Shown: positions 7,951-39,686 of the stretch, piece after piece | Position numbering within the stretch: the stretch's first letter is position 1 | Layout of the letters: every line of letters begins with the position of its first letter | Assembly (NCBI RefSeq): GCF_026651855.1 | Contig: NZ_CP093280.1 | Span: 4,256,001 to 4,320,000 of the forward strand | Origin: Pseudomonas silvicola | GTDB taxonomy: Bacteria > Pseudomonadota > Gammaproteobacteria > Pseudomonadales > Pseudomonadaceae | Reading direction: 5' to 3' | DNA: 64,000 nucleotides | The notes under the pieces: generated by a model | What the model saw: only the letters and a program-made list of their open reading frames with translations | The model's database searches: none | Told to the model about the DNA's origin: nothing | Position numbers and translations under genes: made by a program

Positions 7951-8095
7951 ATCGGTCATGCCTGGCACACCCTTGTGTGATCCTTCACACCAATACCCAC
8001 TATCACGAGGGATGATTTATTACTCCACCCCCCAAACCCTTAACCTTTGTTCATCGAATCACTCCCCAGAGCACCCACGGTGCAGGAGGCCCCTG

Positions 8096-11994: not shown

Positions 11995-14250
11995 TCACCC
12001 CCCGGCGGTCAACAGGCGCTTGCGCATCGTGAACGAGACGCTCAACCCATGGGCGTCCCGTGAAGATCCACCGACCTTCAACGTCGCCAGCCCCTGGGGT
12101 ACATACCAGCCATCACGCCACACGCTGAACCGGGTCGATGGCAGGGCAAGGCTCAGCGTGCGCGATTCGCCCGGCTTCAGATGCACTTTCTGCCACCCCA
12201 CCAACCGCTGGGGTGGCTCGCCGCTGTCGATTGGCAGCCCGGCGTAGAGCTGGGCCACTTCGGCACCCTCGCGGGGGCCGTCGTTGGTGAGGGTGAAGCT
12301 GACGCGGACATCGCCTTCGGCGGTTGGAACCACCTTCAGGCCGGTGTAAGTGAAGTGGGTATAGGACAACCCATGGCCGAACGCGAAGAGCGGCGAGCGG
12401 TGTTCTGCGTCGTAGCGTCGATAGCCCATCAGCAGCCCTTCGTCATAGTGGACATCAGGGGTGCGGGTGCTGATCTGCCGTTGCGGCAGGTCCTGTTCGG
12501 AGGCCGGGAAGGTGATCGGCAGTTTCCCGGAGGGGTTGACCTCGCCAAACAGGACACGGGCAATGGCAGGCCCACCCTGTGCACCTGGGAACCACGCCGC
12601 CAGGACCGATTGAACCTTGTCGACCCAGGGCATGGTCACCGCCGTGCCGTTTTCCAGTACCACGATGGTGTTGTGGGCTCGGCTGGCAATGGCGTCGATC
12701 AGGGCGTTCTGGTCGTAGCCCTGATTGGCCGGGTCACGCTTGGCGTCGGGGAGTGACAGGTCCGGCAGGTCCACTTGCTCCATGGTGTACTGCGTGGCGA
12801 ACACGATGGTCGCGTCCGCTTTCGCGGCGGCTGCCGACGCGGCCGCGGCATCGCTGCCGTCGAAGTAGGTGACGGTGGCGTCGGGCAGTCGTGCACGGAT
12901 GGCTTGCAGGGGAGAAGACGTGTGCCATATGGCGCACAGATCGAAGATATGGATGACCGAATCCTTCGCCCCAGGTGTCCTGCACGGCACGGCGTTGCCG
13001 TCGCGGGCCGGAACCGAAGCGGAACCACCGCCGCCCATGACGCCAGCGTCGGCGTGGCCACCCACCACGACCACGTTGTGCAGTTGCCTGGCGTCCAGCG
13101 GCAGCGGCGCGCGAGCACCGGCACCGGCCTGGGGCGAGTTTTTCAGCAGCACCATCGACGATTCGGCGGCATGCAACGCCAGCGCGTCGCCCGCGGCCCG
13201 GTCGACCTGGCCGCCCGGCACCGGCGGTGCATCCATGATGCCGTGGCGATAAAGCATGGTCAGTTTGCGGCGTACCATGTCATCGAGACGCTCGGGTGCG
13301 ACCTGGCCATTGTGCAGGGCGGCCTTGAGTTTCTGGTTGAACCAGGTGCCGCGGCCCATCAGGCCAGGTTCATCGTCATTCGCCGAGCCAGGTTCTTCTT
13401 CATCGGTGCCGCTGTTGGCGGCGCGTGCGGTGTCGGTCACCGCCATCACCCAGTCGGACTGCACATACCCGTCGAAGCCCCATTCACCCTTGAGGATGTC
13501 GCTGAGAAGATGCTTGTTCTCACAGGCTTTCTCGCCGTTGACCTTGTTGTAGGCGCACATGACGATGGCCGGTTGGCCGTCCTTGACGGCGATTTCGAAC
13601 GGGCGCAGGTACAGCTCGCGGAGCACCCGCTCACTGACCACCGAGTTGGAATTGAAACGGTCGGTTTCCTGGCCATTGACCGCGAAGTGCTTGGCCATGC
13701 CCAGCACGTGCTGGGATTGGGTGCCCTTGGTGCGTTCAGCTAACAGGGTACCGGCCAGCAGGGGGTCTTCGCCCAGGTACTCGAAGGTACGACCGTTACG
13801 CGGCTCGCGGGCCAGGTTGGTGCCGCCGCCCAGGCCGCCGGCGAAACCCAGTGTGCGCAACTCGCTGCCGATCAGCGTGCCGTAGCGGTGGGCCAGGGCA
13901 GGATCCCAGCTGGCGGCCAGCGCCAGTGTGGCGGGTAATGGCGTGGTGTTCTTGCCCGACAGGTTGATGCCGGAACTGGAGTCGGCATAGTTGACGGGTG
14001 GGATACCCAGGCGTTCGATGCCCGGTACATACCCCCCGCCACCGATGGGTGAGGTGAAGAAGCCGGCGCCGTGGACCAGGCTGACTTTTTCATCCTGGGT
14101 CATTTTGGCCAGCAGCTCGTTTGCCCTGGCGGTAGCGTCCGTGTCGAGCTCGCTGGCATGGCCGGTGGCACAAAGCGTGGCACCGATGGCCAGCGCCAGC
14201 AATGGGCGGGCAATGAGCCCGTGACGTGCGGTAGGTGTGCTTCCTGGCAT
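11995..14250 (-). CDS. GH3 beta-glucosidase, exported
   Basis: A 751-residue family 3 glycoside hydrolase. It has a Sec signal peptide (residues 1-32, cleavage after TGHA), the (beta/alpha)8 domain with the nucleophile Asp in GYVQSDWVM, the alpha/beta sandwich domain, and a C-terminal fibronectin-III-like domain (FAFGHGLSYTHF onward). It should remove beta-linked glucose or xylose from glycosides in the periplasm. The start at 14250 follows AGGAG; a longer frame at 14295 has no role. It is the last gene of the operon, 71 bp after the GH106 gene, which suggests successive removal of rhamnose and glucose from one substrate. Confidence 0.88.
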   Translation of the reverse strand: MPGSTPTARHGLIARPLLALAIGATLCATGHASELDTDATARANELLAKMTQDEKVSLVHGAGFFTSPIGGGGYVPGIERLGIPPVNYADSSSGINLSGKNTTPLPATLALAASWDPALAHRYGTLIGSELRTLGFAGGLGGGTNLAREPRNGRTFEYLGEDPLLAGTLLAERTKGTQSQHVLGMAKHFAVNGQETDRFNSNSVVSERVLRELYLRPFEIAVKDGQPAIVMCAYNKVNGEKACENKHLLSDILKGEWGFDGYVQSDWVMAVTDTARAANSGTDEEEPGSANDDEPGLMGRGTWFNQKLKAALHNGQVAPERLDDMVRRKLTMLYRHGIMDAPPVPGGQVDRAAGDALALHAAESSMVLLKNSPQAGAGARAPLPLDARQLHNVVVVGGHADAGVMGGGGSASVPARDGNAVPCRTPGAKDSVIHIFDLCAIWHTSSPLQAIRARLPDATVTYFDGSDAAAASAAAAKADATIVFATQYTMEQVDLPDLSLPDAKRDPANQGYDQNALIDAIASRAHNTIVVLENGTAVTMPWVDKVQSVLAAWFPGAQGGPAIARVLFGEVNPSGKLPITFPASEQDLPQRQISTRTPDVHYDEGLLMGYRRYDAEHRSPLFAFGHGLSYTHFTYTGLKVVPTAEGDVRVSFTLTNDGPREGAEVAQLYAGLPIDSGEPPQRLVGWQKVHLKPGESRTLSLALPSTRFSVWRDGWYVPQGLATLKVGGSSRDAHGLSVSFTMRKRLLTAGG

Positions 14251-14321
14251 GTGGTTCTCCTGTAAATGATGGAATGGCAGAGGCCGTGTCTTCACACGAA
14301 GGCACGGCCAGGCGACCGGTA

Positions 14322-17042
14322 TCAGTGCCCCGTTTGGACCATCAGCGGTCCTTGCAAGCCGTATGGCTGGAAGGGCAGCGCGCCGTAGATAGCGGTTTCC
14401 TGCTGCTTCATGCGGTTGTTCAATGTGGAGGCAACACTCAGCTCAACGGTGTTGCGCCCGGGGTGCGCATACTGGCTGACCACGACTTCACGCAGGTGTG
14501 GGTCCACGGCCACGGCGTGGCCGTTGACCTTCAACTGCCACAGGCCGTCGGCAGCCGGTACCAGCAAGCGCACGGCCGTGTCGCCAGGCGCGAGCTGGAA
14601 GGTGCCCTGGTAATTGGCCCGGCCCGAGAGGTTGCGCAGGGCTTCCACGTCTGACCACGGGCCGTCAGGGGCTGTGCCCAGGTACCTGGGCTGGATGCGC
14701 GTGGTATAGCCATCCGCCGCCGGGCCCCAGTCTTCCAGTCGCAGGCTCCAGTGGGTCAAGGCCACGGGCGCCTGCCATTGCCGGGCGGGGGTGGCAGGGG
14801 CGAGGGCGAATTGTTCGCCCAGGGCAAAGGCTATCGACTGGCCAGGTTGCAGCTCCACGGCGGTAGTCAGCATGCCCTGTGCCTGGGGCGAGAATGCCAC
14901 CGGCACGACCTTGCCGCTCCAGGCATCCAGTTGCACCAGCTTGCCTTGGCCACGCAGTGCGACCTGTGCCTTGTAGACCTGCTTGCCCGTGTTGACCAGC
15001 CAGTAATAATCGCTGCCAGCGTCGCGGCGATGCACGCTGTACACGTCGGCCACACCTGGGACGAAACCGGGCAGTACCCGCAGCGTTTGCAGGGCGGCCA
15101 GGGCATGGGGGTAATCGGCAACAGGGGTTGCCCCGTCCATTGCCAAGGTGCCGCCCACCACGATCACCGGCGCGCCCTCGGCGATCAGTGCTTGCAGCTT
15201 CTGCCGGACATCGGCAGCCAGCGGCCGGCGGCCGTCCAGCAACAGTGCACGCCACGATGCATGGCCCATCACCAGATGCGTGCCGTGCCAGGCCAGGCCG
15301 TGGCTGAGCAACTGCTGGCTGCTGATAAACCCATAGTGGTAGCCCGCCTGCGCCAGTGCCGGTTCAGGCAGCAGCGGCCCTTCGTGATCCAGTTCGTCGT
15401 TGAGCACCACCAGTTCGGTCTGCGCGATACCGTGGCGCAACAGCGCCTGGGTACGCGCCAGGTAGCGGGTGATCACCGGCATGTCTGGCCAGGAGGGTTG
15501 GCGTGGCCCCCAGGCTTCGGAGAAACCGTTGTCGATGGTGGGCGAAAACAGGCTCGGCCCGAAGGGCTCGAACGGTGACCAGCCCGGCCAGCGCGCCGTT
15601 GGTACCTTGCCTGAATAGGGATAGCCGTGCACGGTGATCTGGTTGACGCCACCGGCGTAGTGCAGTTGCAGCAGGTTGAGCATGTCCGGCCAGCTTTGCC
15701 GGTAGCTGCCACCGATTATCGAGCAGCATTCGGTGGAGAATTGCCCGCGCCCCTGGATCTGGCCAGCGGTGCCCAGCACGCGGAACAGGTCCAGTTGATT
15801 GTCGAGGGTCAGGTTTTCGCCTTCCGGGGTATCGGCCTGTTCGGCAGCGGCGCCCATGTCCATGGGTTGGCCGTAGGTTTGCACGCGGTAGCCCAGGCCC
15901 AGGCCATGGGCCCACTTGGCCAGTGGCCGCAGGTGGTGCTCGCGGTACAGGTCACTGAGGGTGCGCTCGTAGTCGTTGTACACCTCGGTGGAATGGGGCG
16001 TTGCGGTGGCCAGCGCGAAGGTCGGGACGCGGGTGCGCGGAGCGCCGAAATGGCGCTGGTTGTCGACGATGATCAGCGGCAACAGCGGTTCCAGGGCGTA
16101 GCCGCGGTGCTGGGCGAAAGCGGTGGGCAGGCCAGGGGTCCAATTGAGGTGGGAATCCAGTTCCAGGGAGTCCTCCAACAGGTCGCGGCCGTGCTGGCGG
16201 ATCAGCCTTTTGAGCCTCGGGGTGAGAATGTTGGCTGCCCAGTAGCCGGTCACGGCCTGGGTACCGGCCTCGGCAAAGTGGTCTGGCACATAGGCCTGGG
16301 GCGCACTGGCGGCGGGGTTCTGCGGCATGATGGCCAAGGCGGCGGTCTGGCCGGTACCGCGCTGCCAATAGGCGATGACGATCCAGTGGCCGCCCTGGGG
16401 CGCTTGCCAGTGAAGGGTGTCGCCAGCCTTGAGGTCGATGAGCGAGCCGGTCTTCAGGCGGATCGGTGTTTCAGCGCATTGCTCGGCGCATTGCCAGGCT
16501 TGCGCCGCTACCGGATGTTGCTGGGTGACGGCCGCCACGCGGCTTCTGGCGGGGGCTGGCAAGGGCGCATCGTAGGTGTCGTTGCCGGCCAGTACTTTCC
16601 AGCCGACCACCAGCTCCTTGGCGGCTTGCGGGCCGTTGGGGTCCAACCCCGGCACGACCACGGGCCACGCCGGGCCGATGGTCAGCGAGACGCGCAGGTC
16701 ATTTTTCCCGGCGGCGCGCAAGGTGGTTTCCAGGGTGTCGCGCCACGCCGGCGTGCCCCAGCCGTAGCGCGTCGGGTCCACGGGGCCGGCGTTTTGCGGC
16801 AGGTCGGCAACTTCCACGCTACCGAAGCCGGCCTGGGCAATGCTGTGCAGGTCCTGAGCGATCACGGCGTGGTCCGTCTGGGCGCCGGGCAGCCAGTAGC
16901 GGATGCTGGGTTTGAAGGCTTGGGTGGGCGCTTCGAACAGTGCGCGCAGTTGATTGAAGTCGTCGGCGGCGTGGGCCACCGTCGGCAGGCCGGTGACCAG
17001 GCAGGTGCAGGCCAGAGCCCGGGTGAAGGGGGAAATAGGCAC
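14322..17042 (-). CDS. GH106-like alpha-L-rhamnosidase, exported
   Basis: A 906-residue protein with a signal peptide (residues 1-25, cleavage after AHA). After it comes FKPSIRYWLPG, the variant here of the RYWWPGG signature of family 106 rhamnosidases. The catalytic barrel spans about residues 30-600, with GQFSTECCSI and VHGYPYSGK stretches, and C-terminal beta-sandwich domains follow. GTG is the likely start. Family members release alpha-L-rhamnose from plant or pectic glycosides. The neighbourhood of GH3, esterase and aromatic-ring genes points to rhamnosylated aromatic glycosides rather than pectin. Its first 92 codons are duplicated in the chimeric gene at 17712-18461. Confidence 0.75.
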   Translation of the reverse strand: MPISPFTRALACTCLVTGLPTVAHAADDFNQLRALFEAPTQAFKPSIRYWLPGAQTDHAVIAQDLHSIAQAGFGSVEVADLPQNAGPVDPTRYGWGTPAWRDTLETTLRAAGKNDLRVSLTIGPAWPVVVPGLDPNGPQAAKELVVGWKVLAGNDTYDAPLPAPARSRVAAVTQQHPVAAQAWQCAEQCAETPIRLKTGSLIDLKAGDTLHWQAPQGGHWIVIAYWQRGTGQTAALAIMPQNPAASAPQAYVPDHFAEAGTQAVTGYWAANILTPRLKRLIRQHGRDLLEDSLELDSHLNWTPGLPTAFAQHRGYALEPLLPLIIVDNQRHFGAPRTRVPTFALATATPHSTEVYNDYERTLSDLYREHHLRPLAKWAHGLGLGYRVQTYGQPMDMGAAAEQADTPEGENLTLDNQLDLFRVLGTAGQIQGRGQFSTECCSIIGGSYRQSWPDMLNLLQLHYAGGVNQITVHGYPYSGKVPTARWPGWSPFEPFGPSLFSPTIDNGFSEAWGPRQPSWPDMPVITRYLARTQALLRHGIAQTELVVLNDELDHEGPLLPEPALAQAGYHYGFISSQQLLSHGLAWHGTHLVMGHASWRALLLDGRRPLAADVRQKLQALIAEGAPVIVVGGTLAMDGATPVADYPHALAALQTLRVLPGFVPGVADVYSVHRRDAGSDYYWLVNTGKQVYKAQVALRGQGKLVQLDAWSGKVVPVAFSPQAQGMLTTAVELQPGQSIAFALGEQFALAPATPARQWQAPVALTHWSLRLEDWGPAADGYTTRIQPRYLGTAPDGPWSDVEALRNLSGRANYQGTFQLAPGDTAVRLLVPAADGLWQLKVNGHAVAVDPHLREVVVSQYAHPGRNTVELSVASTLNNRMKQQETAIYGALPFQPYGLQGPLMVQTGH

Positions 17043-18189
17043 GGGAGGCAGTTCCTTTGTCCAAATAAGCGTTCAAGCAGGCGCGCGGTCGCTCACGGCC
17101 AGCGCGGCTTTCAGTATCCAGGGCGCGGACAGCGCGCCGACGATGGCGGCATAGCCCATCTTGAACGCGACGAAGGGCCAGAACGCCAGGGCATCAACGG
17201 CCAGGGTCATCAGCGCCAGGCAGGTCAGCGGCACCAGGGCAACGGTCATCAGCAGCGCCACGATCACGGTGCGCACCGGCAGCGGCAGTGATGCCAACGC
17301 CGCAATCCACGACGAAGGGTGGTTGTGCGGCGGAGCGATGCGACCCTGGCGCAGGCGCTGGCGGGTCAGCAGCGAAATGGCCAGGCTGCCGAACAGGGTC
17401 AGCATGAACACCGTGGGTACCAGGTCAATGGCGATACCCTTGCTGCCCCATAACGGGATGACGGGGGCGTTGTGAAACAGCAGGGCGGCGAAAAACAGGG
17501 CGATGGCGGCGTTTATCGCGCAGCCCAGCAGGGTTTCACGCTGGATGTAGCGATGGGCCGGAACGGGGGAATGATTCATGCGGTTACACCTGATTTATTG
17601 TTAGTGTCCAGGGTGCGTACAGCGGTCATGGTTTGCCTGCGGGGGGGGGCCGGGGAAGCGTGGAAGGCGGACGACTCGCCAGGCCCGCGCTTCACCCCGG
17701 CCCCCGGGGAATCATGTCAGGGCGGTGGCGGCCTCCAGGAACGTGAGCAGTGGCGCGCTGAGCGAGGTGTCTGGCGTGCCGATGCTGAACCCCTGGGAGA
17801 AATGGTTATGGTCAGGCAGCACCAGCAACTGGGGGTTGAAGCCGTGCTGGCTGACCAGCCGGGCAAACAGCTCGCCGGCCTGCACCTGCATTTGCACCAG
17901 GTCCAGTTGGGTAAAGCCGATCAGCAGCGCGAAGGGCGCGCTGGACACATGGTCCACGGTACTGGCGCTGTCCCACTGGGCCGGGTCGCTGCCAAAATAG
18001 GCCTCGTTGCGCGGGTCGGGCGTGTCGATCCCGAATTGTGCCCGGGCCTTGCCTTCCAGCCGAGGGTTATAGGGGCCGGACAGCAGCACCGCGCCGCGGA
18101 TGTTCCAGCCGGGCGGGTGGAACGCTTCGCGCAATGCAGTGGCGCCGACATGGGCGGCGCCGGCCGACTCGCCCATCAGCACGATGCGC
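16771..18189. repeat. 1419-bp tandem duplication, copy A
   Basis: This segment and 18190-19608 are near identical, with about ten base differences (for example G/C near 18066 and T/C near 17327). Copy A holds the GH106 gene start, one complete 168-codon membrane gene and the 3' part of the esterase gene. The 13-bp sequence GTCGGGTCCACGG stands at both ends and at the joint (16771, 18190, 19609). Confidence 0.95.
17073..17579 (-). CDS. small polytopic membrane protein, copy A
   Basis: A 168-residue protein with about four predicted membrane segments (roughly residues 16-36, 50-70, 95-120 and 128-155) and a short polar loop around residues 73-88. I do not recognise the family. The start follows AGGTG at normal spacing, and an AACAATAAA stretch (17594-17602 on the other strand) precedes it. 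It lies 30 bp before the GH106 gene and so belongs to the operon; a role in uptake or envelope adaptation to the glycoside or its aglycone is only a guess. Copy B at 18492-18998 differs by one residue (Asn instead of Asp in the HxHP loop). Confidence 0.75.
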   Translation of the reverse strand: MNHSPVPAHRYIQRETLLGCAINAAIALFFAALLFHNAPVIPLWGSKGIAIDLVPTVFMLTLFGSLAISLLTRQRLRQGRIAPPHNHPSSWIAALASLPLPVRTVIVALLMTVALVPLTCLALMTLAVDALAFWPFVAFKMGYAAIVGALSAPWILKAALAVSDRAPA

Positions 18190-18461
18190 GTCGGGTCCAC
18201 GGGGCCGGCGTTTTGCGGCAGGTCGGCAACTTCCACGCTACCGAAGCCGGCCCGGGCAATGCTGTGCAGGTCCTGAGCGATCACGGCGTGGTCAGCCTGG
18301 GCGCCGGGCAGCCAGTAGCGGATGCTGGGTTTGAAGGCTTGGGTGGGCGCTTCGAACAGTGCGCGCAGTTGATTGAAGTCGTCGGCGGCATGGGCCACCG
18401 TCGGCAGGCCGGTGACCAGGCAGGCACAGGCCAGAGCCCGAGTGAAGGGGGAAATAGGCAC
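17712..18461 (-). CDS. chimeric GH106 N-terminus / esterase C-terminus
   Basis: A 249-codon frame made by tandem duplication. Residues 1-92 are the GH106 protein from its signal peptide through NAGPVDPTR. From residue 93 on it is the esterase from VDPTR-IVLMGESAG to its end. The fusion is in frame because both parents encode DPTR over the shared bases. It keeps the esterase nucleophile GESAG and C-terminal His but has lost the HGGG oxyanion loop (residues 75-78 of the parent) and half of the fold, so esterase activity is unlikely. The signal peptide would send the product to the periplasm. GTG start as in the GH106 gene. Probably a non-functional by-product, though it is undamaged. Confidence 0.85.
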   Translation of the reverse strand: MPISPFTRALACACLVTGLPTVAHAADDFNQLRALFEAPTQAFKPSIRYWLPGAQADHAVIAQDLHSIARAGFGSVEVADLPQNAGPVDPTRIVLMGESAGAAHVGATALREAFHPPGWNIRGAVLLSGPYNPRLEGKARAQFGIDTPDPRNEAYFGSDPAQWDSASTVDHVSSAPFALLIGFTQLDLVQMQVQAGELFARLVSQHGFNPQLLVLPDHNHFSQGFSIGTPDTSLSAPLLTFLEAATALT

Positions 18462-19608
18462 GGGAGGCAGTTCCTTTGTCCAAATAAGCGTTCAAGCAGG
18501 CGCGCGGTCGCTCACGGCCAGCGCGGCTTTCAGTATCCAGGGCGCGGACAGCGCGCCGACGATGGCGGCATAGCCCATCTTGAACGCGACGAAGGGCCAG
18601 AACGCCAGGGCATCAACGGCCAGGGTCATCAGCGCCAGGCAGGTCAGCGGCACCAGGGCAACGGTCATCAGCAGCGCCACGATCACGGTGCGCACCGGCA
18701 GCGGCAGTGATGCCAACGCCGCAATCCACGACGAAGGGTGGTCGTGCGGCGGAGCGATGCGACCCTGGCGCAGGCGCTGGCGGGTCAGCAGCGAAATGGC
18801 CAGGCTGCCGAACAGGGTCAGCATGAACACCGTGGGTACCAGGTCAATGGCGATACCCTTGCTGCCCCATAACGGGATGACGGGGGCGTTGTGAAACAGC
18901 AGGGCGGCGAAAAACAGGGCGATGGCGGCGTTTATCGCGCAGCCCAGCAGGGTTTCACGCTGGATGTAGCGATGGGCCGGAACGGGGGAATGATTCATGC
19001 GGTTACACCTGATTTATTGTTAGTGTCCAGGGTGCGTACAGCGGTCATGGTTTGCCTGCGGGGGGGGGCCGGGGAAGCGTGGAAGGCGGACGACTCGCCA
19101 GGCCCGCGCTTCACCCCGGCCCCCGGGGAATCATGTCAGGGCGGTGGCGGCCTCCAGGAACGTGAGCAGTGGCGCGCTGAGCGAGGTGTCTGGCGTGCCG
19201 ATGCTGAACCCCTGGGAGAAATGGTTATGGTCAGGCAGCACCAGCAACTGGGGGTTGAAGCCGTGCTGGCTGACCAGCCGGGCAAACAGCTCGCCGGCCT
19301 GCACCTGCATTTGCACCAGGTCCAGTTGGGTAAAGCCGATCAGCAGCGCGAAGGGCGCGCTGGACACATGGTCCACGGTACTGGCGCTGTCCCACTGGGC
19401 CGGGTCGCTGCCAAAATAGGCCTCGTTGCGCGGGTCGGGCGTGTCGATCCCGAATTGTGCCCGGGCCTTGCCTTCCAGCCGAGCGTTATAGGGGCCGGAC
19501 AGCAGCACCGCGCCGCGGATGTTCCAGCCGGGCGGGTGGAACGCTTCGCGCAATGCAGTGGCGGCGACATGGGCGGCGCCGGCCGACTCGCCCATCAGCA
19601 CGATGCGT
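18190..19608. repeat. 1419-bp tandem duplication, copy B
   Basis: Second copy of the unit described at 16771-18189. It contains the chimera's GH106-derived 5' part, the second membrane gene and the 3' part of the intact esterase. Differences from copy A cluster in the GH106-derived part (about seven of ten), including codon changes Thr to Ala and Gln to Arg. Confidence 0.95.
18492..18998 (-). CDS. small polytopic membrane protein, copy B
   Basis: Second copy of the 168-residue, four-segment membrane protein, identical to copy A except one residue in the central loop. In the ancestral order this gene stood directly between the esterase gene and the GH106 gene. Its upstream leader, including a run of nine G/C bases near 19061 and the AACAATAAA stretch, is duplicated too, so both copies should be equally translated. 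Confidence 0.75.
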   Translation of the reverse strand: MNHSPVPAHRYIQRETLLGCAINAAIALFFAALLFHNAPVIPLWGSKGIAIDLVPTVFMLTLFGSLAISLLTRQRLRQGRIAPPHDHPSSWIAALASLPLPVRTVIVALLMTVALVPLTCLALMTLAVDALAFWPFVAFKMGYAAIVGALSAPWILKAALAVSDRAPA

Positions 19609-21256: not shown

Positions 21257-21297
21257 GGACTTTTCCTTGTAATTGTAAGCAGTCACTGAGCACTGGG

Positions 21298-22836: not shown

Positions 22837-22839
22837 GGC

Positions 22840-23706: not shown

Positions 23707-23707
23707 T

Positions 23708-24613
23708 TTATTGTCCTTGTTCCTGGGAGGTGAAGAAGACGTTGCGTTGTGCGGCCTTGAGTGCTGGCGACGGTGGCTGGGAGATGCCCCACTGGTCCAC
23801 CCGGCCCTCGGGCCAGGTCCAGTCGCCCGGCGCGCCGGCCTGGTAGCTGTCGTCGATCTGCTCGACGTCGGCGGTGTATTCGATGACTTCGCCGAACGGG
23901 CCGATGAAGTAGTTGAAGGCGTTATTGCCCGGGCCATGGCGGCCTGGGCCCCATTCGATGGGGTGTTGGGCGTCGCGCATGCGGCCACCGCCGCGCATCA
24001 CCGACTCCAGGTCCGGCATCAGGAAGGCGATATGGTTGAGCGCGTCGTTGTCGGTCACGCCCAGGGCAATGGAGTGGTGGTCGCGGTCGCAGTTGAGGAA
24101 GGCCATGATCTTGGTGCGGTCGGACAGGCGGAAGTCCAGCACGCGCTCGAAAAAGGCCTGGGACTGCGCTACGTCGTGGCTGTTGAGCACGGCATGGGCC
24201 AGGCGGATGGGGCGATCGGTGGCTTCGAAGGCCTGGGCGCGCTCGTCGCCATGCACCACGCGCAGGATGCGCCCGTGGGGGTCGCGCAGGGTCAGGGCGA
24301 TGCCGCCACCGGGCTCGGTCACGCTGACCTGGTCTTCGATAATCTGCCCGCCATTGGCCAGCGCGGCTTCGCGAATCTGCCCCAGGGCATCGGCATCGCG
24401 GGCGCGCAGGGTAACGTTGCGAATGGCCAGGTGGTCGGCCTGGTGCAGGGCGAGCAGGTGGTGATCAGCACCGGTACCCTTGAGGTAAATGGCCGTGTCG
24501 GTACGCGCGGCGATATCCAGGTGCCAGACGCGGGTGTAGAAGTCCTCTGCGCGCGCCAGGTCTGGTACGTCCAGCGCGACGCTGCGCAATGCCTGAATCC
24601 ATTTGGAAGCCAT
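23708..24613 (-). CDS. extradiol-type ring-cleavage dioxygenase (VOC)
   Basis: A 301-residue type I extradiol enzyme with two vicinal-oxygen-chelate domains (about residues 1-125 and 135-270). The iron triad is likely His140 (LAHAVLNSHD), His194 (LNHIAF) and Glu245 (GEVIEYTA), at the spacing seen in BphC-type enzymes; a histidine pair at residues 179-180 could serve as the acid-base. It should open a dihydroxylated aromatic ring with O2. The upstream gene encodes a decarboxylase-like amidohydrolase and the downstream genes an FAA hydrolase and a hydroxylase, a complete meta-cleavage set. Substrate unknown. Confidence 0.82.
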   Translation of the reverse strand: MASKWIQALRSVALDVPDLARAEDFYTRVWHLDIAARTDTAIYLKGTGADHHLLALHQADHLAIRNVTLRARDADALGQIREAALANGGQIIEDQVSVTEPGGGIALTLRDPHGRILRVVHGDERAQAFEATDRPIRLAHAVLNSHDVAQSQAFFERVLDFRLSDRTKIMAFLNCDRDHHSIALGVTDNDALNHIAFLMPDLESVMRGGGRMRDAQHPIEWGPGRHGPGNNAFNYFIGPFGEVIEYTADVEQIDDSYQAGAPGDWTWPEGRVDQWGISQPPSPALKAAQRNVFFTSQEQGQ

Positions 24614-24616
24614 AGA

Positions 24617-25663
24617 TCAACCCCTGCCTGTGTGAGTCGAGAGTGCGAAAAATCGTTCGGCGTTGCCGTGCATCAGGGCCTGGACCTGGGCGTCGGTCAG
24701 GCCGCACTCCGCCAGGCGTGCCACGGGTTTGCGCTCGTGGAAATTGAAGGGGTAGTCGCTGCCCAGCAGCAGTTGGCTGGCGCCGAACGTGGCCACCAGG
24801 TGGCGCAGGGTCGGGGCGTCGAACACCAGGGTGTCGAAGTACAGCTGGCGGGCCTGTTCGCCAGGGGAAACGGCGATGCTGTCGCGCAGCGCGGGAAAGG
24901 TTTTCCAGCCCTGTTCCAGGCGCGGCAGCAGTGAGGCGAAGGTACCGCCACCGTGGCTGAAGGCCAGGCGCAGGCCGGGGCAGTCGTGCAACAGGTTGCC
25001 GGTGATCACGGCGGCAGCCGCCAGGCCCACGTCGCTGGGGTAGGCCAACACCTGCTGCAACGGCGCGGGGCCACTGAGGCGGTCCATGCCGCACGGCTTG
25101 AGGGCGTGCACGAACACCGGCACGTCCAGCGCCACGCACGCCTGGAAGAAGGGGCGCAAAGCAGGATCGGCCAGGGTCAGGCCGTTGATGTTGCTGCCCA
25201 GTTCGACAGCCACCAGCCCCAGTGTCCGCACCGCGTATTCCAGTTCGGCGATCGCCACGTCCACGTCCTGCAGCGGCACGGCGGCCATGCCAAGCAGGGC
25301 ACCACCACTGTCGTCGCACAGCTGGGCGATGGATTCATTGATGTAGCGCAGCAGGGGCTGGGCATGGTGCACCGGCATCCAGTAGCTCAGCAATTCAGGC
25401 ATCGGCGAGATGACCTGGCGCCCCAGGCCCATGTCCGGCAGGTCGGCCAGGCGACGGGGCAGGCTCCAGCATTGGTCGGAGACGGTACGGTAGTGTTTTC
25501 CATCGATCATCACGTGGCAGTGGCAATGGCCATCGTGTGAGGGGGCTTGCAGCATGGACGGCCAACCGGCCGGTACATGCGGGTCAGCCCAGGCGGGGAA
25601 CTGGGCGGGGACAAAATGGGCGTGGATGTCGATGCCCAGGTCGGGAGCGAGGTGGAAGGTCAT
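24617..25663 (-). CDS. amidohydrolase-2 (ACMSD-like decarboxylase/hydrolase)
   Basis: A 348-residue TIM barrel of the ACMSD / gamma-resorcylate decarboxylase group. Metal ligands are His14 and His16 (DIHAHF), a His in PVFVHALKP (about residue 183), a His in SHGGG and the Asp in LLGSDYPF (about residue 303). Members decarboxylate aromatic or ring-opened acids, or hydrolyse C-C bonds, with Zn or Mn. It is the first gene behind the promoter at 25664-25760 and starts 3 bases upstream of the dioxygenase gene in transcription order, so it is an early part of the pathway. Decarboxylase versus hydrolase cannot be decided from sequence. Confidence 0.83.
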   Translation of the reverse strand: MTFHLAPDLGIDIHAHFVPAQFPAWADPHVPAGWPSMLQAPSHDGHCHCHVMIDGKHYRTVSDQCWSLPRRLADLPDMGLGRQVISPMPELLSYWMPVHHAQPLLRYINESIAQLCDDSGGALLGMAAVPLQDVDVAIAELEYAVRTLGLVAVELGSNINGLTLADPALRPFFQACVALDVPVFVHALKPCGMDRLSGPAPLQQVLAYPSDVGLAAAAVITGNLLHDCPGLRLAFSHGGGTFASLLPRLEQGWKTFPALRDSIAVSPGEQARQLYFDTLVFDAPTLRHLVATFGASQLLLGSDYPFNFHERKPVARLAECGLTDAQVQALMHGNAERFFALSTHTGRG

Positions 25664-25760
25664 GGCAGGGCATTTTTATGATTGTGTGGGCTGATCCTAT
25701 ATAAAATGAATTTTAGTGGCAATATAAAATATTAAAAATATCGTATCGTTTTTTCATACA
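25664..25760 (-). promoter_or_regulatory. promoter/operator of the aromatic-glycoside operon
   Basis: Read leftward, TTGCCA, a 17-base spacer and TAGGAT give a sigma-70 promoter about 30 bp before the first gene. This AT-rich block is homologous over about 80 bp to 30835-30925 in front of the porin gene; shared runs include AATATAAAATATTAAAAAT and TATGATTGT. The string TTCATTTTATATA, next to the -10 element, also occurs in similar form in front of the HbpS gene. It is probably an operator for the GntR protein encoded at 26355. Confidence 0.7.
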
Positions 25761-25818
25761 CTCCCGGGCCCGGTAGAGCGCCGATGGGCAAGGCCATCGG
25801 CGCGATTGCCTGGCCCAG

Positions 25819-26244
25819 TCAGCGGGCTGCAAGCCCCGCAGCGTCGATGCCAACCGTCACGATCAGCTCGTCTTCGTCACCGGTTCCGCCCGACGCGCCA
25901 ATCGCGCCTACCACGGCGCCGGAGGCGTCTAGCATCAGCATCGCGCCGGTTTGCGGGACGAACGGGTGCTGAGAACTCGTGGCGATCGAGCCGAAGAACG
26001 CTGGCATTTCACCGGCTTTCTTTGCTAATAATCGAGTATTGGCCCCCATGCCGATGGCGGCGCAGGCCTTGCCCGTGGCGATGGTCATGCGCAATGGCGT
26101 TGCGCCGTCTTCCCTGGCAGCGGCGACAACGGTGCCCGCGGTGTCTACCACCACGATGGCCATGGGCCGGAACTGGTGGCTGCGTGCGGCCTGCAAGGCG
26201 CCGTGCAGAGCGGTTTGAGCCTGGTCGAGGGTGAGGGTGGGCAT
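25819..26244 (-). CDS. HbpS/GlcG family protein
   Basis: A 141-residue GlcG/HbpS (DUF336) protein, about the usual length, with the family pattern MAIVVVDTAGTVVAAAREDGA (residues 28-48) and a glycine-rich GAIGASGGTGDEDE near the C-terminus. Members bind heme or corrin, or sit as small helper proteins in catabolic operons; no catalytic role is proven for most. AAGGA precedes the start. It is divergent from the GntR gene and is followed, after 155 bp with its own promoter, by the aromatic operon, so it is probably in the same regulon. Confidence 0.82.
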   Translation of the reverse strand: MPTLTLDQAQTALHGALQAARSHQFRPMAIVVVDTAGTVVAAAREDGATPLRMTIATGKACAAIGMGANTRLLAKKAGEMPAFFGSIATSSQHPFVPQTGAMLMLDASGAVVGAIGASGGTGDEDELIVTVGIDAAGLAAR

Positions 26245-26354
26245 GACGGTTCCTTTTTATATATTAAATGAACGGTGTGGCTGTATCTGATATGATTGGC
26301 CGCGCAATCGCAACCCCGACTGCTTGTTTTTCATATTTTCTGGTGTACCTACCC
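26245..26354. promoter_or_regulatory. divergent hbpS-like / gntR control region
   Basis: This 110-bp gap between two divergent genes holds TATATATTAAATGAA at 26257-26271, which on the minus strand reads TTCATTTAATATATA and resembles the box at the promoters of the aromatic operon and the porin. TGTATCTGATATG (about 26281-26293) is a second dyad-like element. It is a likely site of autoregulation by the GntR protein. Confidence 0.5.
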
Positions 26355-27062
26355 ATGGCTCGAACCCCCGCTGTCAGCATCGACAACCGCCCCTCTACCC
26401 GCGCGACCGACCTGTATGACCAGTTGCGCGCTGACCTGCTCAACGGTCAGCTGGAACCGGGCAGCAAGCTGGTGATCGATGCCTTGGCCGGGCGTTACGC
26501 CACCAGTGCCACGCCACTGCGCGAGGCGCTGAACCGGCTGATCTCCGACGGGCTGGTAGAGAAGCGCGAATTGCGCGGGTTCGTGGTGGCGGAGGTCAGC
26601 GAGCAAGACCTGCTGGAAATCACCAAGACCCGCTGCTGGCTGGAAGAGATTGCCTTGCGCGAATCCATTGCTCGCAGGGACAGGGTGTGGGAGGAAGAAG
26701 TGGTCATTGCCCACCATCGCCTGGCGCGCACGCCCCGCTCATTGTCCCAGGACCACTTCGAGGACAACCCGGATTGGGAGCCCGCTCACCGGGCGTTTCA
26801 CCGCGCGCTGATCGGCGGCTGTGGTTCGCGGTGGCTGCTGGCGTTCTGCGCGCAACTGGCCGACCAGCACCACCGTTACCGTACCCTTTCGGCGCCCCAG
26901 GCGTTTACGGCCAAGCGTGATGTGAAGTCTGAGCACCAGCAGATCATGGAAGCGGCGGTTGAAGGGCGGGCGGACGAGGCGGTGGGGTTGTTGCGCGGGC
27001 ATATCGAGCGCACGGCCAGCATCGTGCGCTCCGACTCGCCGATGTTCAACAAGGGCCGCTAG
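26355..27062 (+). CDS. GntR-family (FCD) regulator
   Basis: A 235-residue FadR-type GntR protein. The winged helix-turn-helix spans about residues 20-85 (LYDQLRADLLNGQLEPGSKL, then SATPLREALNRLISDGLV). The all-helical FCD ligand domain spans about 90-225, with metal/ligand residues in HRAFHRAL and an ERTASIV C-terminal helix. An upstream extension of the frame from 26268 lacks a ribosome site; MARTPAV at 26355 fits the family N-terminus. Such regulators usually repress and are released by an aromatic or organic acid. Position between the HbpS/aromatic operon and the porin/GH1 operon and shared operator-like DNA make it the prime regulator of both. Confidence 0.88.
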   Translation: MARTPAVSIDNRPSTRATDLYDQLRADLLNGQLEPGSKLVIDALAGRYATSATPLREALNRLISDGLVEKRELRGFVVAEVSEQDLLEITKTRCWLEEIALRESIARRDRVWEEEVVIAHHRLARTPRSLSQDHFEDNPDWEPAHRAFHRALIGGCGSRWLLAFCAQLADQHHRYRTLSAPQAFTAKRDVKSEHQQIMEAAVEGRADEAVGLLRGHIERTASIVRSDSPMFNKGR

Positions 27063-27074
27063 CGCTTCCTCCAC

Positions 27075-27725
27075 CCTGTAGGAGCACAGCTCGCTGGCGA
27101 AGGGTACGACGCGGTCCATCAGGTACACCGCGCTGCCATGTTCGCTAGCAAGCTATGCTCCCACCCACCCACCAGGCTGACGCAGCCTGTGGGAGCACAG
27201 CTTGCTGGCGAAGGGTACAACGCGGTCGGTCAGGCATACCGTGCTGCGTTTTTCGCTAGCAAGCTACGCTCCCACCCACCCACTCATCAGGCGGACGCAG
27301 CCTGTGGGAGCACAGCTTGCTGGCGAAGGGTACAACGCGGTCGGTCAGGCATACCGTGCTGCGTTTTTCGCTAGCAAGCTACGCTCCCACCCACCCACTC
27401 ATCAGGCGGACGCAGCCTGTGGGAGCACAGCTTGCTGGCGAAGGGTACGACGCGGTCGGTCAGGCATACCGTGCTGCGTTTTTCGCTAGCAAGCTACGCT
27501 CCCACCCACTCATCAGGCGGACGCAGCCTGTGGGAGCACAGCTTGCTGGCGAACAGTACGACGCGGTCTGTCAGGTACACCGCGCTGTCATGTTCGCAAG
27601 CAAGCTACGCTCCCACCCACTCATCAGGCGGACGCAGCCTGTGGGAGCACAGCTTGCTGGCGAACGGTACGACGCGGTCTGTCAGGTACACCGCGCTGCC
27701 ATGTTCGCTAGCAAGCTACGCCCAC
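27075..27725. repeat. tandem array of 111-115-bp hairpin units
   Basis: The phrase CCTGTRGGAGCACAGC starts at 27075, 27186, 27301, 27416, 27527 and 27638, a period of 111-115 bp. Each unit has a REP-like arm (GTGGGAGCACAGCTTGCTGG) and, about 60 bases later, its imperfect inverse (GCTAGCAAGCTACGCTCCCA), so each can form one long hairpin. Units are separated by CCACTCATCAGGCGGACGCA. The array fills the gap between the gntR stop and the GH1 stop, so it may also end transcription from both sides. Open frames within it are repeat artefacts. Confidence 0.85.
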
Positions 27726-27729
27726 CGTT

Positions 27730-29070
27730 TCAGCTCAGTGCGTTGCGCTGGGCAATGGCCCCCAACACCTGTGCGCTGCCTTTGACTTCGCGCTTGAATG
27801 TCGTGCGGTCCACCGCCACCAGCCCGAACCGGGGCTTGTAGCCGAACAGCCATTCGAAGTTGTCCAGCAGACTCCAGTGCACATAGCCCAGCACCGGCAC
27901 GCCATCCTGCATGGCCCGTTGCAGGCCGGCCAAGGCTTGCGGGATGTAGGCGGCGCGCCGTGCATCGTTGGAGGTGCTGATGCCATTCTCGGTGACGATG
28001 ACCGGCTTGCCAGTCGCCGCATGGGCATAGCGAACGGCGCCTTCGAGCGACGCCGGGTAGTATTCCTCGCCGCTTTCGGTCAGCTCCGCACCCTTGGGCG
28101 GCAGCATCGCGCCCTTGGCATCGAGCTGCTGGCGGCCGTAGTTCTGCACACCAATGAAATCACTGGTCTTGGCGGCTTCCATCCAGGGGCCGTACACGCT
28201 TTCGCGCTTGGCGTCGCGTTTGCTGTCCGGGCCCACGGCCTGGTCGTCGGTAATGGACAGGCTCACGCCCACCAGCGCATGGGGCGCCACCGATTTGATC
28301 GCCTGGTAGCCTTTGAGGTGGCCTTCCAGCATCAACTTGAGCTTGGGCTGGTATTGGCCAAAATTGGCCACTGAATAATTGGCGCTGCCCGTGGCCCTGG
28401 CCGCCGCCTGCAGCATCTGCGCCTCCACTGCCTTGAACGCAGGCGGGAAGGGCAGCGGCAGCCAGTCCAGAACCGCCAGAATGTTAGGCTCGTTGAGGGT
28501 GGTGGCATGGCTCAGGTGGGCGCCCAGGTGGGTGGCCGCGCGCTCGCAGAACCGTGCGAACAGGTCCGGCGCCCCGGCCGCCTCCCAGCCGCCGCGTGCC
28601 GCGAACCAGCGTGGGGTGGTGAAGTGGTTGAAGGTGACCATGGGGGTGATGCCGCGTTCCAGGCAACTGCCCATCATGCGTTTGTACAGGTCGAGCATGG
28701 CCACTGAAAACTGGCCTTCGGTGGGCTCGATGCGCGCCCACTCCAGGGAGAATCGGTAGGTGTTCAGGCCGATGCCCTTGACCAGGTCCACGTCTTCGTT
28801 CCAGCGGAACAGGCTGTCACAGGCGTCACCGGAGCGTTCGGCGAACACCGTGGGGGTCACTTGTTCCAGCAGCCAGATGTCGGAGTCGCTGTTGTTGCCT
28901 TCGATCTGGTGCCCGGCCGAGGCCGCGCCCCACAAAAAGCCTTTTGGAAACGCGGGGTTCTTGCTGGCGCCATAGCCCACGCCAGGCAGGCTCGCCGCAA
29001 GGGCCAGGGTCGCGCCGCTCAACAGCACATCACGCCGGGTCAGGGGGGCAGAGGAGATTTTCACGGTCAT
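27730..29070 (-). CDS. GH1 beta-glucosidase with Tat signal
   Basis: A 446-residue family 1 glycosidase. The acid/base Glu194 is in TLNEPN and the nucleophile Glu361 is in VIVTENG; HWSLLDNFEW near the end is the glucose-binding stretch. Unusually for GH1 it has an N-terminal export signal: SAPLTRRDVLLSG with the twin Arg at residues 12-13, then a hydrophobic run ending VGYGA near 35, so folded enzyme would go to the periplasm by the Tat route. AAGGA precedes ATG at 29070; GTG at 29073 is possible. It follows the porin gene by about 24 bp in one operon, so uptake and hydrolysis of beta-glucosides are linked. Confidence 0.88.
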   Translation of the reverse strand: MTVKISSAPLTRRDVLLSGATLALAASLPGVGYGASKNPAFPKGFLWGAASAGHQIEGNNSDSDIWLLEQVTPTVFAERSGDACDSLFRWNEDVDLVKGIGLNTYRFSLEWARIEPTEGQFSVAMLDLYKRMMGSCLERGITPMVTFNHFTTPRWFAARGGWEAAGAPDLFARFCERAATHLGAHLSHATTLNEPNILAVLDWLPLPFPPAFKAVEAQMLQAAARATGSANYSVANFGQYQPKLKLMLEGHLKGYQAIKSVAPHALVGVSLSITDDQAVGPDSKRDAKRESVYGPWMEAAKTSDFIGVQNYGRQQLDAKGAMLPPKGAELTESGEEYYPASLEGAVRYAHAATGKPVIVTENGISTSNDARRAAYIPQALAGLQRAMQDGVPVLGYVHWSLLDNFEWLFGYKPRFGLVAVDRTTFKREVKGSAQVLGAIAQRNALS

Positions 29071-29094
29071 CACTTCCTTTTTATTCGAAGGGGT

Positions 29095-30531
29095 TCAACG
29101 ATGCTGGCCCGAATCCAGTCCCAGGAAACTCTCCAGCTGGACATGGAACAGGAAACCGGCGGACATGCCGCTTTTCGGCGCGATACCATTGAAAGGGTTG
29201 ACCGTGTTGACCGGGTCCCAGGTGTACATCACGTAGGGGCTGACCACCACGCCGCGGGTCAGGATCAGGTTGGCGTCCAGTTCCACGGCGTACTCGCCGC
29301 CCGGGCTTGAATAGTCCTGGCCCGCGGTGCGGAACGCGGCGTTGATGTACTTCTGTTCGTGGTCACTGAGCTGCACCCAGTGGGCGCTCAGCGAGTAGGT
29401 GTCATAGGGTCGGGACTTGAACGGCGCGGACAGGATCAGGCCGGTGCTGACCTGGTTGGGAATGCCATTGGGCACGTCTTCTTCGAAGACGTGGCTGCCA
29501 GCGAAATAGGCGCTGAGCGCGGTGGGGCTCATGTCGTTGGACTGGCCGCCATCGGCGCGCCAGAAGGTCTTTTTCAAGCCCAGATAGAAGCCGTTGAGGC
29601 CGTTGGTGGTGGCGGCCGCGTGGGTGGAATCGGTGAGCTGCGGCGTACCGGCCACGGTGTAGTAAGGGTCACTGCCGTCGCGGGTGTTGTGAAAGCCCAC
29701 CAACTCATAGGACTCGGGATAGGCCGTGTTGGAAAAGTCCGTACGGTAGGCCACGTTGGCCAGGTAGGTGGTGGACATGTTGCCGCCTGAGCTGCCGGCT
29801 CCGCGCTCCCAGCCATTGGTAAACGGATAGGCGTCATTGACGCGCCACGTGCCGACCTGCGCGCTCAAGGCAGGGGTGAACTGGTAATTCATCCGTGCGC
29901 CCCAATTGGCATAGGGGGCAGGGTTCGCGCCGGCGGCGTCCGGTAGGGTGGTGCAGCCCAATCCCACGTTGCACAGGGGTAGGGCGAAGTAGTTGCCGGC
30001 ATTGCTGATGCCGCCTTCGACGGTCAGCTTGTCCTGCAGCAGCTTCTGCTCCAGCGTGAACAAGGTGAGGTGGCTGACCCGTGGAATGTACGGGCTGGAT
30101 TTGCTCGACAGCACGTCCCCGGCTTGTGCGCCGAAGTCCAGGTTATTGCGGTAAGGCACGTACAGCTCGTTGAAATGTACGCGGGTACCTTGCCAGCCAA
30201 TGATCTTCTCGAGATCGAAATCCACGCCCACATCGAACAGCGTCAGTGACTCGTGGTTGCCGGTGTCCGTGCCCACGTCCGGGTTGGCGAGGTAGAACTG
30301 GGTCAACCCCAGGTGCGGGCTGATGCCGTGGTCGTCCAGCCATTTACCTTGCTTTTCCAGTGGCGGCGGGGTCAGCACAGGAATGAAGGAGTCTGGAATG
30401 CCGACACTCGGGCCAATGGGTTCACCGGGGTATTCCAGGCTGGCGAGCTCAAGCTGTGCCAGTTCGGCGAAACTGGGGGAGGCACACAACAGCGAGACAG
30501 CGAACAGTGAATACGGGGCGTATTTGTTCAT
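29095..30531 (-). CDS. OprB-family carbohydrate porin
   Basis: A 478-residue outer-membrane beta-barrel protein with a Sec signal (residues 1-22, cleavage after SFA). It shows the OprB pattern: HLGLTQFYLANPDVGTDTG near residue 80, alternating amphipathic strands and a C-terminal strand region MSAGFLFHVQLESFLGL. It would admit sugars or glycosides. AGAAGG stands before the ATG, preceded by the A-rich AACAATAATAAAAG (30541-30554), a possible Hfq/Crc site. A promoter at 30835-30925, nearly the same as that of the aromatic operon, lies 300 bp upstream with a small frame between. Confidence 0.88.
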   Translation of the reverse strand: MNKYAPYSLFAVSLLCASPSFAELAQLELASLEYPGEPIGPSVGIPDSFIPVLTPPPLEKQGKWLDDHGISPHLGLTQFYLANPDVGTDTGNHESLTLFDVGVDFDLEKIIGWQGTRVHFNELYVPYRNNLDFGAQAGDVLSSKSSPYIPRVSHLTLFTLEQKLLQDKLTVEGGISNAGNYFALPLCNVGLGCTTLPDAAGANPAPYANWGARMNYQFTPALSAQVGTWRVNDAYPFTNGWERGAGSSGGNMSTTYLANVAYRTDFSNTAYPESYELVGFHNTRDGSDPYYTVAGTPQLTDSTHAAATTNGLNGFYLGLKKTFWRADGGQSNDMSPTALSAYFAGSHVFEEDVPNGIPNQVSTGLILSAPFKSRPYDTYSLSAHWVQLSDHEQKYINAAFRTAGQDYSSPGGEYAVELDANLILTRGVVVSPYVMYTWDPVNTVNPFNGIAPKSGMSAGFLFHVQLESFLGLDSGQHR

Positions 30532-30540
30532 GGATACCTT

Positions 30541-30554
30541 CTTTTATTATTGTT
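30541..30554 (-). promoter_or_regulatory. candidate Hfq/Crc (CA) motif in the porin leader
   Basis: The mRNA strand reads AACAATAATAAAAG directly before the AGAAGG ribosome site. It fits the AANAANAA pattern bound by Hfq-Crc in Pseudomonas to block translation when a preferred carbon source is present. A short match only. Confidence 0.4.
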
Positions 30555-30666
30555 GTGGCTCTGTTCACAAGGCGCACGAATCCCTGCCAGCGGAGGCGGC
30601 GCTTCCAGCATTGCTTGAGGTGACTCAGGTATCAGATCCGGGCGTATCCGGCCCGTGTGGCACGTA

Positions 30667-30834
30667 TCAACTTGAAGACGTACGTGGGCCGTTGAGGCAC
30701 TGCGGCGGTATCGCCTGCGTGTTGGGGTGGCCGGTGGCGCGCTCCAGGTCAGGGGCGCGCGCGAGCGATGTGAGCAGGCACGGCAAGCTGTGGGGGGCAG
30801 CGTCTACCGCTGCGGCAAGCTGGGTAGTGGTCAT
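30667..30834 (-). CDS. 55-codon leader frame or gene remnant
   Basis: ATG at 30834 opens a 55-codon frame with strongly G/C-ending codons (starts MTTTQLAAAVDAAPHSLPC). It stands directly behind the promoter, at the position that the first amidohydrolase gene holds in the sister operon. It has no recognisable domain and ends 136 bp before the porin start. It may be the N-terminal remnant of a deleted enzyme gene or a leader peptide; I cannot choose. The rest of the gap to the porin holds no other gene. Confidence 0.4.
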   Translation of the reverse strand: MTTTQLAAAVDAAPHSLPCLLTSLARAPDLERATGHPNTQAIPPQCLNGPRTSSS

Positions 30835-30925
30835 GGCATCTGTTTTTATGATTGTTGATGCCAAGGATCCTATACAGAATGAAAATTCGAAGCAATATAA
30901 AATATTAAAAATGATGTATCGATAA
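30835..30925 (-). promoter_or_regulatory. promoter/operator of the porin-GH1 operon
   Basis: Read leftward it gives TTGCTT, a 17-base spacer and TAGGAT. The block aligns over about 80 bp with 25664-25760: both have TATGATTGT, GATCCTATA, AATGAA and a 23-bp identical AT-rich run (about 30891-30913). Two duplicated promoters in one locus strongly suggest one regulator. Confidence 0.7.
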
Positions 30926-31020
30926 TTTGTACATGCTTTGGCGAGGTAAACGGGGGAATCTCCCGGTCAGGCGGTTGAGCGGGGAGCACGGGGGAAGGGG
31001 GCGTGATGCCCACCGCAGGG

Positions 31021-32759: not shown

Positions 32760-32934
32760 GGTGGAACTCCTGGATCTGCCGCGAAAGCACAGCGGCGCAA
32801 GTCGGTTCATGGGGGGGGCAGTCAGGAATGAGAGGCTTCAGGACGGCCTTTTTTTATAATGTGTACAGCCGCCTCTGTACCGGGGCGGTCTGTGTGTGCC
32901 AGCGATGAGCGTCCCTGCTCGGCCGTGGTGTTGC

Positions 32935-34967: not shown

Positions 34968-34977
34968 GGTCTGTTCC

Positions 34978-35730: not shown

Positions 35731-35743
35731 GAGAGTCTCCAGG

Positions 35744-38009
<2,266 letters not shown>

Positions 38010-39062: not shown

Positions 39063-39149
39063 AGGCCCACTGCAAGCGGCTGCCGGTGCGCATCGGCGGC
39101 CGCTTGCGTTATCGTAGGCGCCTTTTCACCCATTGTCGGGCAGCACTGC

Positions 39150-39681: not shown

Positions 39682-39686
39682 CTTTT

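Follow-up and report, generated by a model that had tools for sequence, protein, structure and literature searches.

Two operons on the reverse strand of a 64,000-nucleotide stretch of the Pseudomonas silvicola genome (hereafter the window; C1:4256001-4320000 of a genome of 8.65 Mb in three contigs, among them C1 of 7.61 Mb and C2 of 0.95 Mb) probably make up a single catabolic unit that moves horizontally and serves to break down a rhamnosyl-glucosyl phenolic compound, most likely a flavonoid glycoside. The first operon runs leftwards in the order AmdH2, VOC, FAA, MhpA-like hydroxylase, AmdH1, esterase, membrane protein, chimera, membrane protein, GH106 and GH3, and the second, also leftward, consists of OprB and GH1. 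Both carry the same upstream sequence element. The features of the locus are:

11995-14295, reverse: GH3 glycosidase (PF00933/PF01915/PF14310) with Fn3-like domain; signal-peptide-like N-terminus, judged by eye without a predictor
14322-17042, reverse: divergent member of the alpha-L-rhamnosidase family GH106 (PF17132), signal-peptide-like N-terminus
16767-19621: tandem duplication, 1,419 bp, 11 substitutions, 17-bp shared end
17073-17579, reverse: 168-amino-acid membrane-type protein, copy a
17712-18461, reverse: in-frame chimera of the GH106 N-terminus and the esterase C-terminal part, joined at VDPTR
18492-18998, reverse: 168-amino-acid membrane-type protein, copy b
19131-20027, reverse: Abhydrolase_3 (HSL-type) esterase (Pfam and NCBIfam)
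20024-21286, reverse: AmdH1, Amidohydro_1 family, with Xaa-Pro dipeptidase/ochratoxinase-like relatives (Pfam, NCBIfam, solved relatives)
21298-22836, reverse: MhpA-like FAD aromatic hydroxylase (PF01494; NF004829)
22840-23706, reverse: FAA-family hydrolase (PF01557), 288 amino acids; start set at 23706 and not at the longest-frame start, 23988
23708-24613, reverse: VOC-type extradiol dioxygenase (PF00903)
24617-25663, reverse: AmdH2, ACMSD-like, Amidohydro_2 (Pfam and alignment)
25693-25775, reverse: shared element 1, 21-mer at 25719-25739
25819-26244, reverse: HbpS-like protein (PF03928)
26268-27062, forward: GntR/FCD regulator (PF00392/PF07729)
27730-29073, reverse: GH1 glycosidase (PF00232), twin-arginine-type N-terminus, NEP and TENG motifs (N-terminus and motifs by eye, without a predictor)
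29095-30531, reverse: OprB-family porin (PF04966)
30866-30948, reverse: shared element 2, 21-mer at 30892-30912

From AmdH2 to GH3 the intergenic gaps measure -4 to 30 nt, with two exceptions at 132 nt. On the upstream side, a 155-nt gap that contains element 1 separates AmdH2 from HbpS, and the GntR/FCD gene is divergent from HbpS. Pfam confirmed the gene content that the original prediction had given from the letters alone (GH106, GH3, hydroxylase, extradiol dioxygenase, FAA hydrolase and amidohydrolases), as well as its sister operon of an OprB porin and a Tat-type GH1 enzyme. The end it had set for the locus, position 30925, proved to be the end of an antisense open reading frame without a Pfam match.

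A repeat search revealed an 83-bp similarity (73%) between the regions upstream of AmdH2 and of OprB. Its 21-bp heart, the element ATTTTTAATATTTTATATTGC, is identical at both sites and has exactly two sites in the 8.65 Mb at up to three mismatches (reversed control, 0). Strain L18 (taxid 1229486, class Gammaproteobacteria), the closest relative found, with a hydroxylase 93% and a GH1 94% identical to those of the window, also has exactly two sites of a 20-bp form of the element (control, 0), of which the first lies between HbpS and AmdH2 and the second just upstream of OprB-GH1. In that strain some 10 kb separate the two operons, and this interval contains genes for two enoyl-CoA hydratases, an MFS transporter, a TetR regulator, an SDR enzyme, a CoA ligase, a thiolase and a Phenol_MetA_deg protein. 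Element 1 of the window includes a promoter-like TTGCCA-17-TAGGAT at 25722-25694. Judged by the element, both operons are apparently co-regulated. The stretch between element 2 and OprB (30532-30866, about 330 bp) has a short open reading frame directly after the element; it is possibly the remnant of a lost first gene.

Relatives of the locus were collected by a protein search, and all counts out of 80 below refer to the best 80 of 256 confirmed loci. VOC, FAA and MhpA genes occur together in 70 of the 80, and with AmdH2 in 58. The order AmdH2-VOC-FAA-MhpA on one strand is kept in 57 of the 58 loci with all four; because the same order recurs in 57 of 80 related loci, it is not due to chance. 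GntR/FCD relatives (54-92%) are found in nine core loci. A profile search detected GH106 in five loci (L013, L023, L049, L080 and L089; four by tblastn), GH1 in two, GH3 in three and a strong AmdH1 in ten, and all five GH106 loci also include AmdH1 and the esterase. GH106 is thus present in 5/10 loci with a strong AmdH1 and 0/70 others (Fisher p = 1e-5, counting related loci as separate rows).

Searches of whole genomes and plasmids extended this association. GH106 (E<=1e-10) was found in seven of 40 core-bearing genomes, which were hand-chosen, not random, and include the window and all five GH106 loci; in six of the seven one copy lies in the core locus, the exception being the genome of locus L055, which has one elsewhere. 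A GH1 of the same subfamily was present in all six GH106-bearing genomes or records tested, and in both Duganella genomes it is about 1 kb from GH106, just beyond the fetched stretch. Nine plasmid records encode an AmdH1 of at least 60% identity, and six of them have GH106 within about 10 kb (Sphingobium TomTYG64, TomTYG65, V4 and RAC03; Novosphingobium PP1Y and N. resinovorum), while the N. aromaticivorans, THN1 and ES2-1 records gave no GH106 match at E<=1e-60; counted over all 28 AmdH1 plasmid records, GH106 is nearby in six. Loci L095, L203-L206 and L207/L208 were read for gene order. Across three classes (gamma-, beta- and alphaproteobacteria) GH106 and GH1 of the same subfamily occur with MhpA, VOC, FAA and AmdH1, the gene order changing from cluster to cluster; the host groups number six (window/L18, Pelomonas, Duganella, Pseudoduganella, Sphingobium and Novosphingobium). 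The glycoside-linked form of the cluster is best recognised by AmdH1. At E<=1e-110 the 369 genomes of the window's class yielded the window genome's copy only, and MhpA at E<=1e-90 was found in 10 of 248 genomes of its family, its own included; the best other MhpA of the family is 61% identical and adjoins VOC, FAA and HbpS genes.

The cluster of Novosphingobium sp. PP1Y (NC_015583.1) shares with the window GH106, GH1, esterase, AmdH1, MhpA-like hydroxylase, HbpS, VOC and FAA genes. It differs in its canonical GH106, in a LysR regulator and a TonB receptor in place of GntR and OprB, and in the lack of an AmdH2 or GH3 match in the 36 kb read. The PP1Y-type set (GH106, GH1, esterase, AmdH1, MhpA-like, VOC and FAA) is complete in the window, where GH1 sits in the second operon and is tied to the rest by the shared element. 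The PP1Y GH106 matches the solved structure 6q2f over 1,100 residues (2,521 bits) with zero differences in the displayed part of the alignment, and 6q2f is presumably the rhamnosidase RHA-P. RHA-P of PP1Y is listed as CCA90848.1 in the available part of a study that discusses its catalytic residues (PMC6828813), and a PP1Y GH106 is reportedly active on flavonoid glycosides, according to excerpts of a further paper (PMC10653915). In the accessible text of the PP1Y genome paper (PMC4059872) the terms flavonoid, glycosid and naringin are absent and rhamnos occurs once.

The window GH106 is the sole member of its family in the genome at E<=1e-10 and scores 105 bits against a cut-off of 29 (PF17132). 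Its residues D291, E294 and E438 are invariant in seven aligned sequences and align with D503, E506 and E644 of 6q2f. The acid E461 and base E593 of BT_0986 are described as conserved in RHA-P in the part of PMC6828813 available. The family match and the catalytic and metal residues are in place; activity on flavonoid rhamnosides is a prediction. The best solved relatives of GH3 carry beta-glucosidase names, and the window OprB is 55% identical to the OprB of another locus of the genome (L107).

Among the ring-cleavage enzymes, the hydroxylase exceeds the cut-off of NF004829 (506.5 bits against 390), and the MhpA equivalog models listed by the NCBIfam scan all fell under theirs. The dioxygenase has VOC domains and aligns with the solved 3b59 and with homoprotocatechuate 2,3-dioxygenases. 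In AmdH2, H14, H16, R59, H186, H237 and D303 are invariant in ten sequences including the window; aligned with human ACMSD, the protein retains what we take to be the metal ligands, the catalytic histidine and the substrate arginine. AmdH2 is therefore best described as ACMSD-like and a candidate decarboxylase. AmdH1 has amide hydrolases among its relatives, ochratoxinase being one of them.

These assignments suggest a route in which GH106, GH1 and GH3 would take off rhamnose and glucose outside the cytoplasm, and OprB would let in the sugars or the glycoside. The MhpA-like enzyme would hydroxylate either the aglycone or one of its fragments, the VOC enzyme would carry out meta-cleavage of the ring, and the FAA hydrolase, the ACMSD-like AmdH2, AmdH1 and the esterase would degrade ring-opened and ester- or lactone-type intermediates. 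The shared element would switch both operons, read perhaps by the neighbouring GntR protein. A hydroxylase, an extradiol enzyme, an FAA hydrolase and an ACMSD-like decarboxylase would suit a polyphenol ring cleaved to an acylpyruvate; this ring may belong to the flavonoid itself (its A-ring), to a trihydroxybenzoate that the esterase sets free or to what remains of a phenylpropanoid. The original prediction had proposed that one substrate passes from deglycosylation to ring cleavage. The two-site element, the recurrent co-localisation and the agreement of the PP1Y GH106 with 6q2f now support a link between the two steps; the choice of aglycone, and the cleavage of a ring of that very compound, are as conjectural as before.

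In the literature covered, in part as excerpts, the loci described for aerobic flavonoid breakdown are fde and ifc. The original prediction had named FdeE and FdeC as the closest analogues, which was not borne out. Two stand-ins that are fde-like by gene content served for the comparison (L093 and L094, from Massilia putida and N. aromaticivorans): identity of the window hydroxylase to theirs is no more than 25%, against 62% to the MhpA-like enzyme of M. putida, and the dioxygenase is 33% identical over 217 amino acids. Orthology with FdeE and FdeC was rejected on these distances and on the MhpA-like NCBIfam assignment of the hydroxylase. The fde locus of Herbaspirillum seropedicae, for naringenin, resembles the window in its FAD monooxygenase followed by VOC-type ring opening, whereas the window has an MhpA-like hydroxylase, no adjoining Rieske gene, and glycosidases, with fde-like genes elsewhere in the genome. 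The ifc locus of Variovorax sp. V35, for isoflavones, likewise combines an FAD monooxygenase with glyoxalase-type ring opening. It has the cupins IfcD1/D2, and IfcA is inactive on glycosides, as stated in the available portion of PMC11069340. Neither a Rieske carrier (FdeD) nor a cupin (IfcD) was found among the operon proteins scanned with Pfam; a Rieske gene lies instead in locus L106 of the same genome. With the mhp pathway of 3-hydroxyphenylpropionate degradation, as we understand it, the window shares the MhpA-family hydroxylase, whereas here a VOC enzyme would open the ring, accompanied by an FAA hydrolase.

A second gene set accompanies the MhpA/VOC/FAA core at a short distance on the M. 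putida plasmid and on pNL2. It is made up of a shorter FAD oxygenase, a further VOC, a HisD-like dehydrogenase and FAA2, joined by a Rieske protein in M. putida. FdeE works together with the Rieske protein FdeD, according to the accessible part of PMC8552027, a description that the second set would fit. The window genome has fde-like loci at C1 4.894 Mb (VOC 59%, Rieske 51%, FAD oxygenase 44%) and at C1 5.33 Mb (HisD 90%, FAD oxygenase 43-53%, together with an OprB of 55% identity to that of the window). The former also includes DUF1302, DUF1329 and MMPL genes, and another hydrophobic substrate is therefore possible for it. By these comparisons the window core looks like a companion of fde-like sets and not a copy of one. 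The term fde is absent from the available text of a naringenin RNA-seq paper (PMC4440368). A literature search that covered few subscription papers or primary RHA-P reports returned no description of a GH106/GH1 cluster with MhpA/VOC/FAA genes, and a search on phloroglucinol-type chemistry gave nothing useful. It is conceivable, at somewhat less than even odds, that the window represents a mobile flavonoid-glycoside pathway distinct from fde and ifc, in which MhpA-type, VOC and AmdH1 enzymes open the aglycone after GH106 and GH1 have acted, with the known rhamnosidase RHA-P as its front end in sphingomonads.

Several observations weigh against a single flavonoid-glycoside unit. The window GH106 is 24-27% identical to five other cluster GH106s, GH3 is an inconstant partner across the 80 loci, and the sphingomonad clusters read are without AmdH2. 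About 330 bp, with the short frame in between, separate element 2 from the OprB start, and in a consensus scan the hexamers paired at element 2 (30922-30894) differ from those at element 1. Most core loci are without a glycosidase in the fetched DNA, and the substrate of the core itself is therefore wider than glycosides. This wide occurrence would also be expected if the compound were a non-flavonoid phenolic rhamnoglucoside, such as an acylated phenylethanoid (e.g. acteoside), a lignan or a coumarin glycoside, whose acyl ester the esterase would cut and whose simple phenol the core would open. A rhamnosidase, a beta-glucosidase and an esterase presumably suit acylated phenolic glycosides, and the CoA-ligase/thiolase set of L18 points the same way. 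We consider this unlikely, given the fde-like loci in the window's genome and the flavonoid-glycoside activity reported, in the excerpts cited, for the PP1Y GH106 that we take to be RHA-P (PMC10653915).

The glycosidases might instead target a plant polysaccharide or a saponin and merely share an operon with genes for degrading an unrelated aromatic acid. GH106 enzymes known to act in this range include the steroidal saponin rhamnosidase SpGH106-1 and BT_0986, as far as the consulted portions of PMC10653915 and PMC6828813 go, and the tomato Sphingobium isolates came from soil treated with alpha-tomatine (PMC10653915, same portion). A gene annotated as 3-oxosteroid 1-dehydrogenase adjoins the GH106 cluster of Sphingobium TomTYG64 (L205, 24428-26008), and GH43 and arabinofuranosidase genes are near that of RAC03. 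The saponin activity and the dehydrogenase gene count against a flavonoid substrate too. Yet co-localisation is repeated in six host groups with changing gene order, the element is present before both operons only, and no polysaccharide lyase or pectin-type family was found among 40 window proteins scanned, a subset of the window's open reading frames. A coincidental neighbourhood of this kind thus appears improbable, well behind a phenolic glycoside of either type.

A separate oddity of this genome is its many near-identical tandem duplications, one of which fuses genes inside the operon. Positions 16767-18202 are repeated at 18186-19621 with a period of 1,419 bp, 99.2% identity, 11 substitutions and a shared end of 17 bp. 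At the junction GH106 and the esterase are fused in frame through codons for VDPTR that both genes share, which creates a 249-amino-acid open reading frame with the GH106 start and the GESAG part of the esterase, without the esterase HGGG region. The duplication, absent from the original prediction, explains both the two 168-amino-acid frames and the frame at 17712-18461. The 168-amino-acid proteins have no Pfam or NCBIfam match and, among the loci searched, a relative outside the window in L013 only. L18 has single copies of the duplicated region, and both window copies show changes relative to it.

Thirteen kilobase-scale tandem duplications, 99.2-100% identical, were found in 1.584 Mb of this genome (head-to-tail pairs, period 300-6,000 bp, at least 97% identity, not counting those whose period is a multiple of a 106-bp repeat at C1:4119425 or a 117-bp repeat in L107):

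In the window: 16767-19621; 33247-36075 (1,406 bp, 17-bp end, in nic-like genes)
Elsewhere, from C1: 4116343, 4225005, 4457252, 1074187, 6041899, 6054046, 6111371, 7028323, 7127537, 7150894, 7157350

One is threefold, and the twofold ones have shared ends of 6-23 bp. Seven genome blocks were sampled; the window block, chosen for the window, holds five of the 13, and three (C1 2.0-2.2 Mb, C1 3.0-3.2 Mb and C2 0-0.2 Mb) have none. No such duplication occurred in 2.47 Mb of comparison DNA, made up of 1.67 Mb from 85 other loci, 0.4 Mb from four genus-mates (60-67% GC; listed genus-mates have 4.1-7.0 Mb) and 0.4 Mb of L18 (10,957 bases N), in pieces mostly of about 21 kb that lower the chance of seeing a pair and with L013 counted both among the 85 loci and in the L18 contig. 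Loss of RecA as their source was rejected, as RecA is intact (478 bits). Assembly or sequencing error may lie behind them. The 1,419-, 1,406- and 1,127-bp pairs show 11, 6 and 3 substitutions and zero indels, the 942-, 2,443-, 910- and 564-bp pairs contain a one-base indel each according to their coordinates, and the 967-bp pair is identical.

The left flank of the locus encodes a sigma-54 activator, an acyl-CoA dehydrogenase, a luciferase-type monooxygenase and an FMN reductase. The right flank (31452-43810) encodes MFS, isochorismatase, Amdase, hydrolase, FAD oxygenase, MarR, 2Fe-2S and molybdopterin/cytochrome c proteins, and the pair of isochorismatase and Amdase genes is duplicated; the set reads like nicotinate degradation, and the nic names are those we assume for it. 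Imperfect repeat arrays of 160 bp (5889-8020, with inverted copies) and 111-115 bp (27072-27734) are also present, and sequences resembling the former occur in the L18 contig and at two places some 41 and 97 kb to the left of the window. Positions 5329-7398 of L107 hold near-perfect 117-bp tandem repeats in a long open reading frame that also matches a POP-type hydrolase of M. putida.

If the two operons do act as one flavonoid-glycoside unit, they would represent a further, non-orthologous ring-opening module tied to the removal of rhamnose and glucose, spread over three proteobacterial classes and often carried on large plasmids. Such a module would explain how bacteria use glycosides released by plants, and it names the genes for direct tests.

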